Assembly: GCF_014844135.1 (NCBI RefSeq)
Contig: NZ_CP041403.1
Span: forward strand, 682,001-746,000
Source: Arcobacter sp. FWKO B
Lineage (GTDB): Bacteria > Campylobacterota > Campylobacteria > Campylobacterales > Arcobacteraceae
Direction of reading: 5' to 3'
Length of the DNA stretch: 64,000 nucleotides
Shown: in pieces, positions 49,829 through 59,367 of the stretch
How positions within the stretch are numbered: the stretch's first letter is position 1
Layout: each line of letters opens with the position of its first letter
Program-made: the position numbers and the translations under genes
Notes under the pieces: model-generated
Database searches by the model: none
What the model was told of the DNA's origin: nothing
What the model saw: the letters and a program-made list of their open reading frames with translations, nothing else

Positions 49829-50626
49829 TTACTTCATATCTTTAGCCTGTATCCAGATAACTGCGTCTTGACTTAACTCTTTGCCTTCATACTCATCATC
49901 AGGTCCTACACCAAGTGCAGCAAATCCCCACCATCCTGATTTTGGAATACCAAATGTAAACTCACCATCTTTATTTGCTTTTATACCTATTGTTACAAAA
50001 GAATCTTGAGGTGCAGTGTATTTACCTTTGCCCATAGAGTTTTTTTTCATATCTACATCGTGGTTTAGGTATTCTACTTCAATCTCAGCATAAGGTACTG
50101 GCTCGCCATTACTTTTTACTATACCTGTAAATGTTCCGCCAGCATATATTGCATATGGTTTTGTAAGAGGTACAATTTCAGCTTTTAGCCCAAGTTCTGC
50201 GTCCCAATTTGTAGGAAGACCAGCTACATTTACTACCATTTTTGTGATTTGTTGGATATATGCATCTTCATTTTTTTCAAAATAAGGTTTTGGAGTCATT
50301 ACAAAAAGATGATCACCCATTTTTCTAGCAGCATAATCATTTTCAAACCCTTTTCCACTGTTTGTATTACCTTTGAAAGTAATAGGTTTCAAATCTTTCA
50401 TAAGGTCTGTTTTTTCTTCTTTATGTACCACATAAAACTCTTCAATACCAGCCATATCCATAGTATGTTCATCAGCAAAAGGGTGATTGAATACATGTTT
50501 AAGTGTAATCTTCCCACCTTTTTCCAAAGCACTCTCAGGCGTATACAACATTTGGAAATGTGCCATAGCACTACTTGCAGCCAAACCAAAAGCTACTACT
50601 GAACTTAATATTATCTTTTTTGTCAT
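49829..50626 (-). CDS. DUF4198 periplasmic protein, probable metal-uptake accessory
   Basis: Signal peptide (MTKKIILSSVVAFGLAASSAMA) leaves a mature N-terminus beginning with His (HFQMLYTPESAL), a feature of DUF4198 proteins near nickel, cobalt or iron transporters. Histidines HVFNHPFADEHT follow. The C-terminal half is a carboxypeptidase-regulatory-like beta-sandwich (YAGGTFTGIVKSNGEPVPYAEIEVE). Length 265 aa. As the last gene of the Fur-box-preceded feo cluster it probably helps iron reach FeoB; metal is not proven. Confidence 0.82.
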   Translation of the reverse strand: MTKKIILSSVVAFGLAASSAMAHFQMLYTPESALEKGGKITLKHVFNHPFADEHTMDMAGIEEFYVVHKEEKTDLMKDLKPITFKGNTNSGKGFENDYAARKMGDHLFVMTPKPYFEKNEDAYIQQITKMVVNVAGLPTNWDAELGLKAEIVPLTKPYAIYAGGTFTGIVKSNGEPVPYAEIEVEYLNHDVDMKKNSMGKGKYTAPQDSFVTIGIKANKDGEFTFGIPKSGWWGFAALGVGPDDEYEGKELSQDAVIWIQAKDMK

Positions 50627-50765: not shown

Positions 50766-51065
50766 TCACTCAACTATATTCTTACTACTCACATACACCC
50801 TATGCCCCTCACCTGCATCAAGTACAGCACTATAGTCACCACTTGGCTTTTTGAAAGTAAATTCACTATCAGCGTCAAATTTACCCTCAATTATAGCCTT
50901 ACCGTTTTGTTCAACTTTAAAAGTAGTACCACTTGCACTACTTCCATCGCTAAAACCACCCTCGCAAGTAACACTTCCATCACCATTGTCAAAGCATGAC
51001 ATCAAAGCAGTATGCCCAAATGCAAAACTGCTAGCTATAAATAAACCTAATATTGTTTTTTTCAT
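50766..51065 (-). CDS. Small periplasmic protein, probable metal-uptake accessory
   Basis: 99 residues with a signal peptide (MKKTILGLFIASSFAFG) and a mature N-terminus HTALMSCFDNGDGSVTCEGG. The rest is a small beta-sandwich (KVEQNGKAIIEGKFDADSEF) like the NikL/carboxypeptidase-regulatory type. An exposed N-terminal His plus two Cys suggests metal binding. It lies between feoB and the DUF4198 gene on the same strand. Confidence 0.75.
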   Translation of the reverse strand: MKKTILGLFIASSFAFGHTALMSCFDNGDGSVTCEGGFSDGSSASGTTFKVEQNGKAIIEGKFDADSEFTFKKPSGDYSAVLDAGEGHRVYVSSKNIVE

Positions 51066-54252: not shown

Positions 54253-54417
54253 TTATGCAATTTCTCGTTTTATCATATATGATAATTCAAGATTATCCAT
54301 ATAAGGATATCTAGCTTTTAGTATTTTAAACACAGGACATATACAATTACTATTTTTTGAAATATTCAAATCATTTAAGATCTTATTAATTTCAATTTTC
54401 AATCTCAATCTACTCAT
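54253..54417 (-). CDS. Small protein of the feo operon with a CxCP motif
   Basis: 54 residues, missed by longer-ORF tracks: starts MSRLRLKIEINKILNDLN, has NCICPVFKILKARYPYM, ends MIKREIA. AGGAG is 8 bases before the ATG, and two Fur-like boxes lie within 90 bases upstream, so it would be the first gene of the feo operon. No family recognised; the CxC pair could bind iron. Confidence 0.7.
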   Translation of the reverse strand: MSRLRLKIEINKILNDLNISKNSNCICPVFKILKARYPYMDNLELSYMIKREIA

Positions 54418-54428
54418 AGAATTCTCCT

Positions 54429-54446
54429 AGTGATAATCATTATTAG
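54429..54446. promoter_or_regulatory. Fur box upstream of the feo operon
   Basis: The sequence TGATAATCATTATTA shares 12 of 13 bases with the right part of the E. coli Fur consensus GATAATGATAATCATTATC. It lies 14 bases upstream of the first feo-operon start. Confidence 0.6.
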
Positions 54447-54482: not shown

Positions 54483-54497
54483 TGATAACAATTATCA
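54483..54497. promoter_or_regulatory. Second Fur-like box
   Basis: TGATAA-CAA-TTATCA is a perfect palindrome of Fur type, between the feo operon and the divergent CydA-like genes, so it may act on both. Confidence 0.5.
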
Positions 54498-54608: not shown

Positions 54609-55946
54609 ATGGATATAATAGGGCAATTCCCATTGTTTTATTTCCCAGATTATGGAAGTGCTTGGATGATGGGTGTCACTGGTACGATACACATTTTAGC
54701 TTCACACACTTCTGTTGGTGCTGCTATGCTTTTTGCTTTTTTGGCTTATAAAGCATATTCAGAAGATAGATCAGACCTATATCCTTATATGAAAAAATAT
54801 GGTATGTTTTTACTTATTTTTTCATATGTTATAGGTTCTATCACAGGTCCTGGCATTTGGTACACAGCAACTGCAGCCAGTCCCAGAGGTATAAGTGCTT
54901 TGATACACAACTTCGTTTGGGTATGGGCAACAGAATGGGTCTTTTTTGTGTATGAGGTTATAGGTGTTTTTGTACTTGTTTACTTCATAGACAAAATAGA
55001 TAAGAAAACTCATCTAAAACTCACCTATACATTTGCATTGGCTTCAGTTGGAACTTTGGCTCTTATTATAGGAATTATAAGCTTTATGATGTGGCCTGGG
55101 ACTGATGCATTTTATGCTACAGGAAGTGCAAGTGATGCGTTCTTTGGTGTAAACACATTTCCGCATATGTTCTTAAGAATAGGCTTTATGATTATGTTAT
55201 CTGGGGTTATAGGACTTGTTATATCAAGTGCAATGAAAAAAGACAATGCAGAACTTTCAGCTGAACTTACAACCAAAATGGGTTATGTTGCAATGCTTGG
55301 TGGCTTTTTAACTATGTTCTTTTTTATGTGGTATATGGGTACGCTACCTGATAATGCTCATGCGGTATTTAATGTATCAAAAGATGAAGTTATTCAAAAT
55401 AGAATTATTCTAGCGATAGTTTTTTCTTTGTATTTCTTGCTTGCTATTGTAAAACCAAGATTTATAAATCCAACTTTAGCTTCAGTGATGATTGCTGTAA
55501 TACTTATTTCGGGACTTTGGCCTGGAGAAAAGCTTAGAGAATCTATGAGAAAACCTTATGTTGCTGGTCAATATATTTATTCAAACCAAATTATTAGCCG
55601 TGATGTCGAAGGTAAAGGGATAAAAAGTGAATTGCCTATTATCGCTGAAAAAGGGCTTTTACAAGTAAATCCTTTTGTTCCTGAAAATTTAAAAGTTATC
55701 ACAGAAGAAAATAAACTAGCAGTTGGTGAACTTTTGACAAAAATGTCATGTTCAAATTGTCACTCTTTAGAAAAAACAGGTGTATATAGACCTCTTAGAG
55801 ATAGATTAATTGGTATGGATAAAGATGGTATCAAATCCATATTGTATGCTATGGGTAATGGAGCATTTTCTTATATGCCTACACTTGCTTTACCAGAACA
55901 TGAATATGATGCAATAGCTGAATATATTGCATCTTTGAAATATTAA
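54609..55946 (+). CDS. CydA-like membrane protein with C-terminal cytochrome c domain
   Basis: 445 residues with about nine helices. The helix pattern (SYVIGSITGPGIWYTATAAS, then HNFVWVWATEWVFFVYEVIG) resembles cytochrome bd subunit I, but the classic Q-loop is not seen. Histidines in GTIHILASHTSVG, ALIHNFVW and TFPHMFLR are haem b candidates. A soluble C-terminal tail carries CSNCH (381-385) and SYMPTL with Met423 as likely sixth ligand. It forms an operon with a paralogous membrane protein. It may be a quinol oxidase/reductase of the wider bd superfamily using a c-type haem; substrate unknown. Confidence 0.75.
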   Translation: MDIIGQFPLFYFPDYGSAWMMGVTGTIHILASHTSVGAAMLFAFLAYKAYSEDRSDLYPYMKKYGMFLLIFSYVIGSITGPGIWYTATAASPRGISALIHNFVWVWATEWVFFVYEVIGVFVLVYFIDKIDKKTHLKLTYTFALASVGTLALIIGIISFMMWPGTDAFYATGSASDAFFGVNTFPHMFLRIGFMIMLSGVIGLVISSAMKKDNAELSAELTTKMGYVAMLGGFLTMFFFMWYMGTLPDNAHAVFNVSKDEVIQNRIILAIVFSLYFLLAIVKPRFINPTLASVMIAVILISGLWPGEKLRESMRKPYVAGQYIYSNQIISRDVEGKGIKSELPIIAEKGLLQVNPFVPENLKVITEENKLAVGELLTKMSCSNCHSLEKTGVYRPLRDRLIGMDKDGIKSILYAMGNGAFSYMPTLALPEHEYDAIAEYIASLKY

Positions 55947-55955
55947 GGAGGATTT

Positions 55956-57149
55956 ATGGACGCATCTGTATTATTGGCTCTTAGAGACCCTGCAGGAGTA
56001 CCTTTTTATCCAGTAGTATTCCAAGCATTGTATGTTCTTACTTGGGCGTTGCATGCTGCATTTGTATTGTTATCATTAGGTTCTATGGGATTATCTTTAT
56101 ATGGGACTTTTAGACAAAAATATGACCCAAATTGGAAGGTTCTCACACCTCATTTGATACAAACTGGTAAAATAAGTGTTTCTATTCTTATAGTTTTAGG
56201 GGTTGCACCTCTTTTGTTTACTCAAGTTATTTATGATCCAAATTGGTATGTGGCAAATACACTATCAGGGATGTGGGTATTTATATTTATATATTCATTA
56301 ATTGTTGGATATATTATGTATTATTGGTATTATTATGCAAACAAAGCTAGTTCAGGTGGAGGAAAACTTATTGGGATTATCTCTTTTGCTATATTAGTAT
56401 TTGCAGGGATTTTAATGCATAATTTTGCAGTAACTTCTATCATGCCAAATGATTGGATGAATATGTATGCACCAAATGGAGTAGTAGATACTAGCGGATG
56501 GACTTTTAATGTTGATACTATTAGACTTGCTTTTATGGTGAGTTTGAGTATCCCTGTAGTTGGAATATTTTTGCAAAACTATAGTAGATTTGTCAGCACC
56601 AGAGATGACTTTAGCAAAGAACTAGTATCTTATTCTGCAACACTTGGGACAAAACTAGGTGTTATTGGATTAGTAATAAGTGCTGCTCTTTTTGCTGTTT
56701 GGATGTTGCAAATAGGATATTTAATGCACCCATTAATCATTGCTACGGTTATAGGTGTGGTTATTTTACTATTAATGACTGCTAAAAACGCTAATAGCTA
56801 TATTACTACTGGAGTATTGGTTGTAGTTGCGCTGCTTATTTCAGCAGTTAGAGAACTAATAAGATTTGACATTATGGCAAAACTTGGATATAGTATATAC
56901 GAATATCCAGTAAATCTTGAAGTTCCATCAATAGTGATGTTTTTATTAACATTCCTTATTATGGGTGGAGTAGGTGTTGCTTATTTACTTACTATGGCTT
57001 GGAAAGTTGGAAAATCAAAAGATGTATTTGATGGCTCAAAAGATGTCGCAGTGAATAAACTAGGTAATTATACTATTTCAATTATGGTTCTTTGGATGAT
57101 TATTTATTTTGGTTGGGGTATGGCTATACTCTTTAATAATATACTATAA
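55956..57149 (+). CDS. Multi-helix membrane protein, partner of the CydA-like cytochrome
   Basis: 397 residues, about nine helices, 9 bases after the previous stop with GGAGG between. It looks paralogous to its partner (FQALYVLTWALHAAFVLLSL and LGVAPLLFTQVIYDPNWYV). Histidines in WALHAAF, LTPHLIQ, LMHNFAVT and LMHPLII could bind haem b. No c-haem motif. It is not a recognisable CydB. The pair is followed by a strong terminator. Confidence 0.72.
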   Translation: MDASVLLALRDPAGVPFYPVVFQALYVLTWALHAAFVLLSLGSMGLSLYGTFRQKYDPNWKVLTPHLIQTGKISVSILIVLGVAPLLFTQVIYDPNWYVANTLSGMWVFIFIYSLIVGYIMYYWYYYANKASSGGGKLIGIISFAILVFAGILMHNFAVTSIMPNDWMNMYAPNGVVDTSGWTFNVDTIRLAFMVSLSIPVVGIFLQNYSRFVSTRDDFSKELVSYSATLGTKLGVIGLVISAALFAVWMLQIGYLMHPLIIATVIGVVILLLMTAKNANSYITTGVLVVVALLISAVRELIRFDIMAKLGYSIYEYPVNLEVPSIVMFLLTFLIMGGVGVAYLLTMAWKVGKSKDVFDGSKDVAVNKLGNYTISIMVLWMIIYFGWGMAILFNNIL

Positions 57150-57172
57150 AATTGTAGTTTATTTGATATTAT

Positions 57173-57206
57173 AATGCCAAAGAGTATAATACTCTTTGGC
57201 ATTTTG
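57173..57206 (+). terminator. Terminator after the CydA-like pair
   Basis: Inverted repeat AATGCCAAAGAGTA / TACTCTTTGGCATT with a TTTT end, 24 bases after the stop. Confidence 0.75.
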
Positions 57207-57228: not shown

Positions 57229-57897
57229 ATGACAGGGACCAAAATACTGTTTTTAGAAGATGACATACTTTATCAAGAGAGTATAAAAGATATATTAGAA
57301 GAGGAACACTATATAGTAGAAAGTTGCAAAAACGGTCAAGAGTTTTTAAATAAGATTTTTGATAATGTATACGATTTATATATAATAGATATTAATGTTC
57401 CAAAAGTTAATGGATTTGAGATTATGAGAATGTTAAAAGAATATAATGATAAAACTATGAAACTTGTATTAACATCTGTTCCAAATAGTATTATTCAGTC
57501 TTTCAAAAGTGGTTGTGATAGTTTTTTAAGCAAAAATACAGATTTAGATGAAATATTAATAAGAATCAAATCTCTTATTAAAAGAACATACCATACTTAT
57601 GATGAATATATCAAAATAACAGACAATATATCATATGATTATTTTAATAAGCAACTATATGATGGTAGCAGAAAAGTTGAACTTGAAACAAGAGCTTTAA
57701 ATGTTTTAGACTATTTAATAAAAAATAGAGGAGAATTTATTTCTACTATAGAACTTGAAAAGAACATTTATCCATGCAATAGTGAGTCAAAATCTGGAGT
57801 AATAAGATATCATATTTGGAATTTACGAAAAGCTATTGGGAAAGACTTAATCCAATCAAAAAAATGTAGTGGATACAAATTAAGGCTACCTGTATAA
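57229..57897 (+). CDS. OmpR-family response regulator (orphan)
   Basis: Receiver with KILFLEDDILYQES and phosphoacceptor Asp54 in LYIIDINVPKVNG; TSVPNS and SKNTD occupy the switch and Lys positions, the latter with Lys in FLSKNT. The C-terminal winged helix has ETRALNVLDYLIKNRGEFIS and GVIRYHIWNLRKAIG. Length 222 aa. No kinase gene is adjacent; it follows the CydA-like operon terminator by 23 bases and may regulate it. Confidence 0.85.
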   Translation: MTGTKILFLEDDILYQESIKDILEEEHYIVESCKNGQEFLNKIFDNVYDLYIIDINVPKVNGFEIMRMLKEYNDKTMKLVLTSVPNSIIQSFKSGCDSFLSKNTDLDEILIRIKSLIKRTYHTYDEYIKITDNISYDYFNKQLYDGSRKVELETRALNVLDYLIKNRGEFISTIELEKNIYPCNSESKSGVIRYHIWNLRKAIGKDLIQSKKCSGYKLRLPV

Positions 57898-58007: not shown

Positions 58008-58367
58008 CTATATTTTTAAACAATTTCTACAAATACCACTAATTGTTACATTATCTATTCGATGTTGTGGTAAATCTATCATTAGTTTAGCTAAACACTC
58101 TATTTTATTGCACACCTTACATACAAAGTGAGGATGTGGATTTGAAGTGATTTCATAATATCTTTTCTTATCATTTGATTCAAAACTATTTACTAAACCT
58201 TCTTCTTCAAATAGAATTATATTGCGATAAAAAGTAGCCTTATCCATAGATAAACTATCCTTTATATCATCATAACTTATTGGCTTAGTAGATTTTTTAA
58301 GTATAGTAACAAGTTCTATTCTTGCATTTGTAGGTTTGATATTAGTAAATTGAAATAAATTTTGCAT
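58008..58367 (-). CDS. Fur-family regulator, probably zinc-responsive (Zur-like)
   Basis: 119 residues, short for Fur. DNA-binding helix NARIELVTILKKSTKPISYD and KATFYRNIILFEEEGLV; two structural-zinc pairs CKVC (83-86) and CRNC (113-116). The metal-sensing His-rich hinge is seen as NPHPHFVC. It is divergent from a zinc-binding protein gene with matching palindromes in the gap, which supports Zur over PerR or Fur. Confidence 0.82.
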   Translation of the reverse strand: MQNLFQFTNIKPTNARIELVTILKKSTKPISYDDIKDSLSMDKATFYRNIILFEEEGLVNSFESNDKKRYYEITSNPHPHFVCKVCNKIECLAKLMIDLPQHRIDNVTISGICRNCLKI

Positions 58368-58401
58368 ATCAAATTCTACCTAAAATGAATTTAAAAACAA
58401 C

Positions 58402-58459
58402 ATGCAACTAAGTTTTATATAAGTCGTGATTATATATAATTATTGCAACTTAGTCGCAA
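58402..58459. promoter_or_regulatory. Pair of palindromes between zur-like and znuA-like genes
   Basis: Two 17-bp imperfect palindromes centred on AACTWAGTY (ATGCAACTAAGTTTTAT at 58402-58418 and TTGCAACTTAGTCGCAA at 58443-58459) lie 24 bp apart. A TATAAT at 58435-58440 sits between them. Probable Zur operators controlling both divergent genes. Confidence 0.55.
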
Positions 58460-58470
58460 AAGGATATGAA

Positions 58471-59367
58471 ATGTTTAATATAAAAGGATTTTTATTAAGT
58501 GTATTTTTGATTATAGCACCAACACTATACGCAAAAGTAAATACAGTAGTCAGTATAGTTCCACAAAAAAGTTTTGTTGAGGCAATAGGTGGTGATCTTG
58601 TTGATGTTTCAATAATGGTACAACCAGGTTCTTCTCCACATTCATATGAACCAAAACCTTCTCAGATGAAAGAGCTTAGTAATGCTCATATATATTTTGC
58701 AATAGGTGTAGAATTCGAAAGTGCATGGCTAAAAAGATTTCAAAACCAAAATAAATCTTTAAAGATTGTTGATACTTCAAAAGGTATCACAAAGCTAGAT
58801 ATGGTTGCACATCACCATGATGATGAAAAAGACCATGGACACAAACATCATAATCATAAACACAATCATAAACATGATACAAAATCAAAAGATCCTCATA
58901 TTTGGACAAGCCCAGCAAATATCAAAGTCATAGCACAAAATATTTATAATGAACTAGTAAGCGTAGATTCTGCAAACAAAGATATTTATGAGGCTAATTT
59001 AAAAGCATTTTTAGAAAAAGTTGATAGTGTAGACTCCCAAATAAAAGAGATACTAAAAGATACTCCAAAAGGTGCTAAATTTATGGTATTTCACCCAGCT
59101 TTAGGATATTTTGCACATGATTATAACTTGACTCAAATTGCTGTTGAAGTTGAAGGTAAAGAGCCAAAACCTGCTGTTTTAGCAAAACTTATAAATGAAG
59201 CAAAAGAAGAAGGCATTAAAGCAATCTTCACTCAACCAGAGTTTTCAGATAAAAGTGCAAAAGTTGTAGCTGATGAATTAGGTATAAAAGTAATCAAGGT
59301 AAGTCCATTAAACCCAAAATGGGATGAGAACCTTATAAATTTAGCAAAAGCTATTTCTAACCAATAG
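58471..59367 (+). CDS. znuA: ZnuA-like zinc ABC transporter substrate-binding protein
   Basis: Periplasmic zinc-binding lipoprotein-class protein of family A-I. Signal peptide (MFNIKGFLLSVFLIIAPTLYA), SIVPQKSFVEAIGGDLVD, GSSPHSYEPKPSQMKEL, a His-rich loop of about 20 residues (HHHDDEKDHGHKHHNHKH) typical of zinc rather than manganese carriers, and DPHIWTSPANI. The start at MFNIKGF (298 aa) follows AAAAGGATATGAA. Permease and ATPase genes are not adjacent. Confidence 0.9.
   Translation: MFNIKGFLLSVFLIIAPTLYAKVNTVVSIVPQKSFVEAIGGDLVDVSIMVQPGSSPHSYEPKPSQMKELSNAHIYFAIGVEFESAWLKRFQNQNKSLKIVDTSKGITKLDMVAHHHDDEKDHGHKHHNHKHNHKHDTKSKDPHIWTSPANIKVIAQNIYNELVSVDSANKDIYEANLKAFLEKVDSVDSQIKEILKDTPKGAKFMVFHPALGYFAHDYNLTQIAVEVEGKEPKPAVLAKLINEAKEEGIKAIFTQPEFSDKSAKVVADELGIKVIKVSPLNPKWDENLINLAKAISNQ

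Follow-up and report, generated by a model that had tools for sequence, protein, structure and literature searches.

Two adjacent genes of Arcobacter encode a CydA-like protein with a haem c domain and a CydA paralogue, a probable copper-free cytochrome c oxidase of the bd superfamily

Two neighbouring genes of Arcobacter sp. FWKO B, P1 and P2, encode a CydA-like protein carrying a C-terminal cytochrome c domain and a second protein with the CydA fold, respectively (Table 1). They lie in the 64,000-nucleotide stretch of contig NZ_CP041403.1 that we analyzed (hereafter, the window). In our main reading, to which we give a probability of roughly 0.7, the 2 products, as CydA paralogues, assemble in the membrane into a complex that acts as a copper-free cytochrome c oxidase. 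The quinol-binding part of CydA has been lost and a cytochrome c gained, and the enzyme is therefore probably an oxidase fed by cytochrome c without a need for copper. The pair is a real, ancient, and widespread two-subunit branch of the bd superfamily, of a kind that has already been named from sequence. An initial annotation of this DNA had placed both open reading frames correctly, and its description of a paralogous CydA-like pair without a Q-loop, with a CxxCH motif and a Met ligand at one C-terminus and with no CydB gene beside it, agrees with the results presented below.

Table 1. Positions of the features discussed (window coordinates, except for the petABC genes, which are given by locus)
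Feature	Position	Strand	Basis or remark
P1 (445 aa), CydA-like, putatively catalytic subunit ending in a cytochrome c domain	54609..55946	+	Pfam, profile, model, ligand mapping
P1 residues 1-327, CydA-like core, eight TM helices	54609..55589	+	VIA-align, ligand mapping, invariance
P1 residues 369-445, class-I-like cytochrome c domain	55713..55943	+	Pfam Cytochrome_CBB3, structure matches
P1 haem c motif CSNCH	55749-55763	+	
P1 Met423	55875-55877		
P2 (397 aa), second subunit with the CydA fold, about 10 TM helices	55956..57149	+	AlphaFold2 model, structure match, synteny
Fur-box-like site 1	54432..54444	.	One mismatch; more likely serves the divergent feo operon
Fur-box-like site 2	54484..54496	.	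One mismatch; more likely serves the divergent feo operon
54-aa open reading frame, GGAGAA Shine-Dalgarno	54253..54417	-	Outside the oxidase; heads the divergent unit
OmpR-family response regulator	57229..57897	+	Pfam Response_reg and Trans_reg_C
petABC upstream of the pair	L209:4613-7407 (G016) and L015:2802-5434 (UBA4036, L015/L212)		

P1 and P2 lie on the same strand with 9 nt between them, and a GGAGG-like site precedes each. The Pfam family of cytochrome bd subunit I (PF01654) was matched by 33 of 36 P1 homologues, with a best E-value of 6e-11, and the window P1 itself reached E 0.07 at best. When a P1 profile was compared with a CydA profile using hhalign, the E-value was 2.6e-6. The AlphaFold2 model of P1, built from the alignment (pLDDT 76), had the solved CydA structure 6rx4_A as its best match in VIA-align (Z 26.4 over 311 residues). 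TM6 and TM7 are linked by only about 3 residues, which means that the Q-loop is absent. The C-terminal domain resembles cytochromes c551/c552 and c6 in structure and sequence matches, and 34 of the 36 homologues matched the Pfam Cytochrome_CBB3 family. C381, C384, and H385 of its haem motif (residues 381–385, C381-xx-C384-H385) are invariant among the 36 homologues, and M423 is present in 34 of them. According to the predicted topology, P1 ends after TM8 and lacks the TM9 of CydA. Because the protein stops there, an N-terminus on the outside, as CydA has, would put its C-terminus outside too, on the side to which c-type haem belongs; with eight TM helices instead of nine, the haem c domain should thus be periplasmic. 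The charge distribution agrees with this orientation, with Lys or Arg at 1 of 71 residues in the outside loops versus 9 of 54 inside.

The window P2 protein had no match in Pfam, and its comparison with CydA at the sequence level by hhalign was not convincing (E 0.004, probability 8%). Its AlphaFold2 model (pLDDT 87.7), however, matched CydA best (7ose_A, Z 25.4 over 336 residues), and the P1 and P2 profiles matched each other with an E-value of 1.3e-5, indicating that the 2 proteins are paralogues. The best reading of P2 is thus a paralogue of CydA, a kinship resting on the predicted fold and the match to P1. We also considered that P2 could be CydB and rejected this identity because CydA leads the structure matches and the CydB profile gave only E 0.1. 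Individual P2 members did have Pfam matches (MnhB, UbiA, and others), which were scattered and were regarded as noise. In P2 the link between TM6 and TM7 has about 6 residues, and the Q-loop is missing here as well. The window P2 has no c-haem motif; H155 is invariant.

In one scan of bacterial genomes, P1 homologues that were nearly all full length and 44–95% identical were found at 80 loci, belonging to Campylobacterota, alpha-, beta-, and gamma-proteobacteria, Methylacidimicrobium (Verrucomicrobiota), and Thermocrinis (Aquificota). P2 lies directly 3' of P1 in every locus where the contig allows this to be seen, and such conservation over 80 loci and several phyla excludes chance. Among the named loci, kin of the window P1 (93–95% identical) are on contigs of Epsilonproteobacteria bacterium UBA6211 and Arcobacter nitrofigilis isolate SulCav, a kinship that points to Campylobacterota and probably Arcobacteraceae. 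Related pairs occur also in Thermus, in Methylosinus, and on Agrobacterium plasmids. Within Campylobacterota, 29 of 298 sampled genomes have a close P1 relative and 3 more a distant type; the window genome (G000) is complete, at 2.24 Mb. The pair had no match to phages, and no Rfam elements were found at the P1-P2 locus.

A tree of these proteins separates all P1 and P2 sequences from canonical CydA by a branch with a support of 100/100, the branches being long and the root set by the outgroup. It contains a P1 clade and a P2 clade, each holding a type I (window-type) and a type II group, which places the duplication that produced P1 and P2 before the split of the 2 types. Type II consists of three Campylobacterota and two Aquificota pairs with a c-haem motif in both subunits; the Agrobacterium pair joins this type, and the motif was seen in its first subunit only. 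One type II pair (locus L150) occupies the site at which a relative of the same genus (L206) has a type I pair, and both loci share acetyltransferase, NicO-family, and ZnuA neighbours. Compared with L206 and L050, the genes at L150 apparently represent a replacement by a functional equivalent, and an exchange of type I and type II pairs is what would be expected if the 2 types do the same work.

To map the haem ligands we used an alignment of 62 sequences, including 24 P1 rows, 18 type I P2 rows, and 6 type II P2 rows, with E. coli CydA as the reference. P1 has all four active-site residues, H28, E116, E311, and R314 being equivalent to H19, E107, E445, and R448 of E. coli CydA, respectively; E109, R190 (beside the H186 position), and P316 are further residues of the core. 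P2 has three of the four, H33, E300, and R303 corresponding to H19, E445, and R448, and does not keep E107. H19 and R448 are kept in all rows of every group. E107 is present in 23 of the 24 P1 rows, with Asp in the remaining one, and E445 has no exception among the 24 P1 and 18 type I P2 rows; the E445 position is occupied by His, another haem ligand, in 5 of the 6 type II P2 rows. Of the haem b558 ligands, M393 is lost in every P1 and P2 row and H186 everywhere except in three type II P2 rows, and an invariant Arg (R190 in P1) occupies the H186 position or a place next to it in P1 as well as in window-type P2. The E99 column contains T, A, or S in type I P1, and the invariant E109 stands one residue further on. 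Because E99 is absent at the aligned column, the active site of type I P1 is not identical to the canonical one. The AlphaFold2 models of P1 and P2 contain no haem.

Genes for electron transfer recur around the pair. A small c-type cytochrome gene is located directly downstream of P2 in all 24 proteobacterial loci whose length allowed the test and also in Methylosinus, and Sulfurospirillum has similar small cytochrome c genes near the pair. In two Arcobacteraceae, G016 and UBA4036, the petABC genes for the Rieske protein, cytochrome b, and cytochrome c of the bc1 complex are immediately upstream on the same strand. The campylobacterotal genome G217, which is rated 100% complete, encodes bc1, a canonical CydA, and the pair, and a search for heme-copper oxidase gave no COX1 (PF00115) match in it; the pair is thus its sole candidate cytochrome c oxidase. 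The window genome encodes bc1, one heme-copper oxidase, and a canonical cydAB approximately 60 kb from the pair, which is therefore not its only oxidase.

A different substrate could be proposed for the pair, with electrons from cytochrome c passed not to O2 but to a different small oxidant, such as nitric oxide or peroxide. The displacement of E99 by one residue fits this proposal, as do the reactivity of canonical bd enzymes with NO and peroxide and the versatile anaerobic respiration of the campylobacterotal hosts, and cytochrome c, which can also serve non-oxygen enzymes, counts to that extent against an oxidase. We nonetheless consider it unlikely because P1 keeps the O2-site residues H19, E107, E445, and R448, because no NO-detoxification or peroxide genes recurred beside the pair in the neighbourhoods of the examined loci, and because bc1 and cytochrome c neighbours suit an oxidase.

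For the oxidase that we favour, we infer the electron path, the haem content, O2 as the substrate, and the association of P1 with P2 as follows. Electrons would pass from bc1 to a small soluble cytochrome c and from there to the haem c domain of P1 in the periplasm. They would then reach a di-haem active site in the helix core of P1 (H28, E109/E116, E311), where O2 would be reduced to water. The haem c would functionally replace the lost Q-loop quinol site and haem b558, and P2, probably haem-bearing too (H33, E300), would fill the structural place of CydB. A bolder version, in which the pair is a widespread copper-free oxidase with haem sites in both subunits that works directly behind bc1 and replaces heme-copper oxidases altogether in some organisms, such as G217, is one that we put forward tentatively, as possible rather than probable.

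The initial annotation had also suggested that the pair is regulated, by Fur and by a response regulator. The 2 Fur-box-like sites do exist, 113–177 nt before P1 and 15–79 nt upstream of the 54-aa open reading frame, which is followed in the divergent unit by DUF2325, feoA, and feoB. However, when the regions upstream of other campylobacterotal pairs were scanned for Fur boxes, the best score was 14/19 (two loci), compared with 15 in the window, and none stood out. Since the boxes are not conserved upstream of these other copies, we rejected Fur control of the pair as the main reading, and the boxes are best read as belonging to the feo operon. The response regulator gene downstream of P2 has orthologues that accompany the pair in several Arcobacteraceae and the type II pair at L150. 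In Sulfurospirillum, more distant relatives of this regulator stand beside the pair with a histidine kinase. Their place is taken in Methylosinus and Agrobacterium by genes of the RegB/RegA kind, for a membrane kinase and for a regulator of 177 aa, the latter with a Fis-type HTH in Methylosinus. The Sulfurospirillum kinase gave moderate matches in the window genome, the best with E 6e-42 and internal stops, and no orthologue was identified there. The recurrence of the gene in Arcobacteraceae partly supports control by the response regulator; its connection to the oxidase is putative, and redox control of the pair is plausible. Transcripts of P2 and of the response regulator may be separated by an AT-rich inverted repeat that lies in the gap between the 2 genes, at 57172-57205 (AATGCCAAAGAGTAT...ATACTCTTTGGCATT).

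The repeated presence of a gene for a response regulator or a histidine kinase next to the pair could also mean that P1 and P2 are no terminal oxidase and constitute a membrane electron-transfer module, for example a redox sensor that feeds the response regulator, or a cytochrome c:quinone reductase. Both models indeed weakly resemble quinone-binding subunits of the PsrC/ActC type (the membrane subunits of polysulfide reductase and ACIII, Z 14–17), an identity that was rejected because it ranks below CydA for both. With CydA matching far better (Z 22–26), and with two-component genes that vary by lineage (OmpR type in Campylobacterota, Fis-HTH type in Methylosinus) and are missing from many loci, we regard such a module as very improbable.

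Compared with the canonical quinol-oxidizing (qOR) cytochrome bd (E. coli CydAB; 6rx4, 6rko), P1 has the same CydA fold and shares H19, E107, E445, R448, and P450, but the pair lacks the Q-loop, the b558 ligands H186 and M393, and CydB, and P1 also lacks TM9. What the pair has in addition is the haem c domain, and its partner subunit is a second CydA paralogue. Archaeal CydAA', likewise made of two CydA paralogues, is reportedly active with quinol, which would favour a quinol oxidase after all, with the quinol site elsewhere and the haem c as an accessory or a sensor, but with the Q-loop gone, the b558 ligands lost, an operon that includes a cytochrome c gene, and petABC in front, this is the least probable of the readings. 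In the textbook view, terminal cytochrome c oxidases are heme-copper enzymes. The cbb3-type oxidase, which is one of them, has the role that we propose for the pair, with cytochrome c as the donor and a c-type domain as in CcoP, but its fold is unrelated and it requires copper.

As a cytochrome c:O2 reductase, the pair would probably belong to the non-quinol branch named OR-C, beside which we set it by description. OR-C reportedly carries a c-type haem. The bd superfamily was divided into qOR, OR-C, and OR-N by Murali, Gennis and Hemp 2021 (ISME J), according to PMC10839748, PMC13189123, and PMC11707229. The pair resembles OR-C (Murali et al. 2021) in being CydA-like, in falling outside qOR in our tree, and in having no quinol site; PMC10839748 presents OR-C only as a clade near OR-N. 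An uncharacterised branch of the superfamily had been suggested initially, and the separation from canonical CydA and the retention of ligands fit this suggestion, but this kind of branch is already recognised in the literature. For the OR-N CydAA' of Nitrospira and Nitrospinota, PMC10839748 and PMC12342949 describe a composition of OR-N1 and OR-N2 subunits, and PMC10839748 proposes that it oxidises cytochrome c, which experiments have yet to confirm. It is like the pair in having two CydA-type subunits and no CydB and in its proposed function as a cytochrome c oxidase. The one OR-N-like protein in our tree, from locus L188, branches apart from the pair on a very long branch and has no c motif. 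This Aquificota protein (L188:3398-5134, 578 aa) is CydA-like (PF01654, E 3.5e-17) and possibly of the OR-N type; its gene is clustered with a thioredoxin-like gene and several genes for c-type cytochromes. Fusions of cydA to multiple c-type cytochromes without cydB were noted in delta-proteobacteria, and set aside, by Degli Esposti et al. 2015 (PMC5322542); both these fusions and P1 combine CydA with c-type haem and have no cydB, but P1 has a single c haem.

In the literature searched, we found neither a purified enzyme of this kind nor a demonstration of a bd-superfamily counterpart to cbb3 with cytochrome c oxidase function, and in the PDB the P1 and P2 sequences matched only cytochrome c domains, with no solved structure for either core. 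If our main reading is true, the pair would be such a bd-type counterpart and would let Campylobacterota, Proteobacteria, Aquificota, Verrucomicrobiota, and Thermus respire without copper downstream of bc1. Its genes in Thermus and Methylosinus are publicly labelled 'cytochrome c' and 'hypothetical protein', and oxidase genes would thus be hidden under these labels. The question can be tested directly with the two-gene core, the cytochrome c as a third gene, the petABC neighbours, and a complete genome that has no heme-copper oxidase.

Several further observations concern the surroundings of the pair. In one member of the Sulfurospirillum genus group (G308, L155:2838-3194), P1 is reduced to a remnant of its c domain, with the cytochrome c, kinase, and regulator genes intact, and this copy has apparently decayed. 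On the Methylosinus plasmid pMSC49c (L094), the pair, the small cytochrome c, and RegBA-like genes are situated between feoB/feoC and genes for the copper chelator methanobactin. A ZnuA-like metal-binding protein is encoded near the pair in the window (58008-59367) and at L050, L150, and L206, together with a Zur-like regulator in the window and at L050, and in Thermus (L093) ZnuA and GTP-binding proteins are found near the pair. Upstream of the window pair, NikL-like (50766-51065) and DUF4198 (49829-50626) proteins are encoded beside feoB, forming another metal-transport unit. Judging from the ZnuA, Zur-like, GTP-binding protein, and methanobactin genes in these neighbourhoods, metal limitation, in the supply of either zinc or copper, is possibly linked to the pair.
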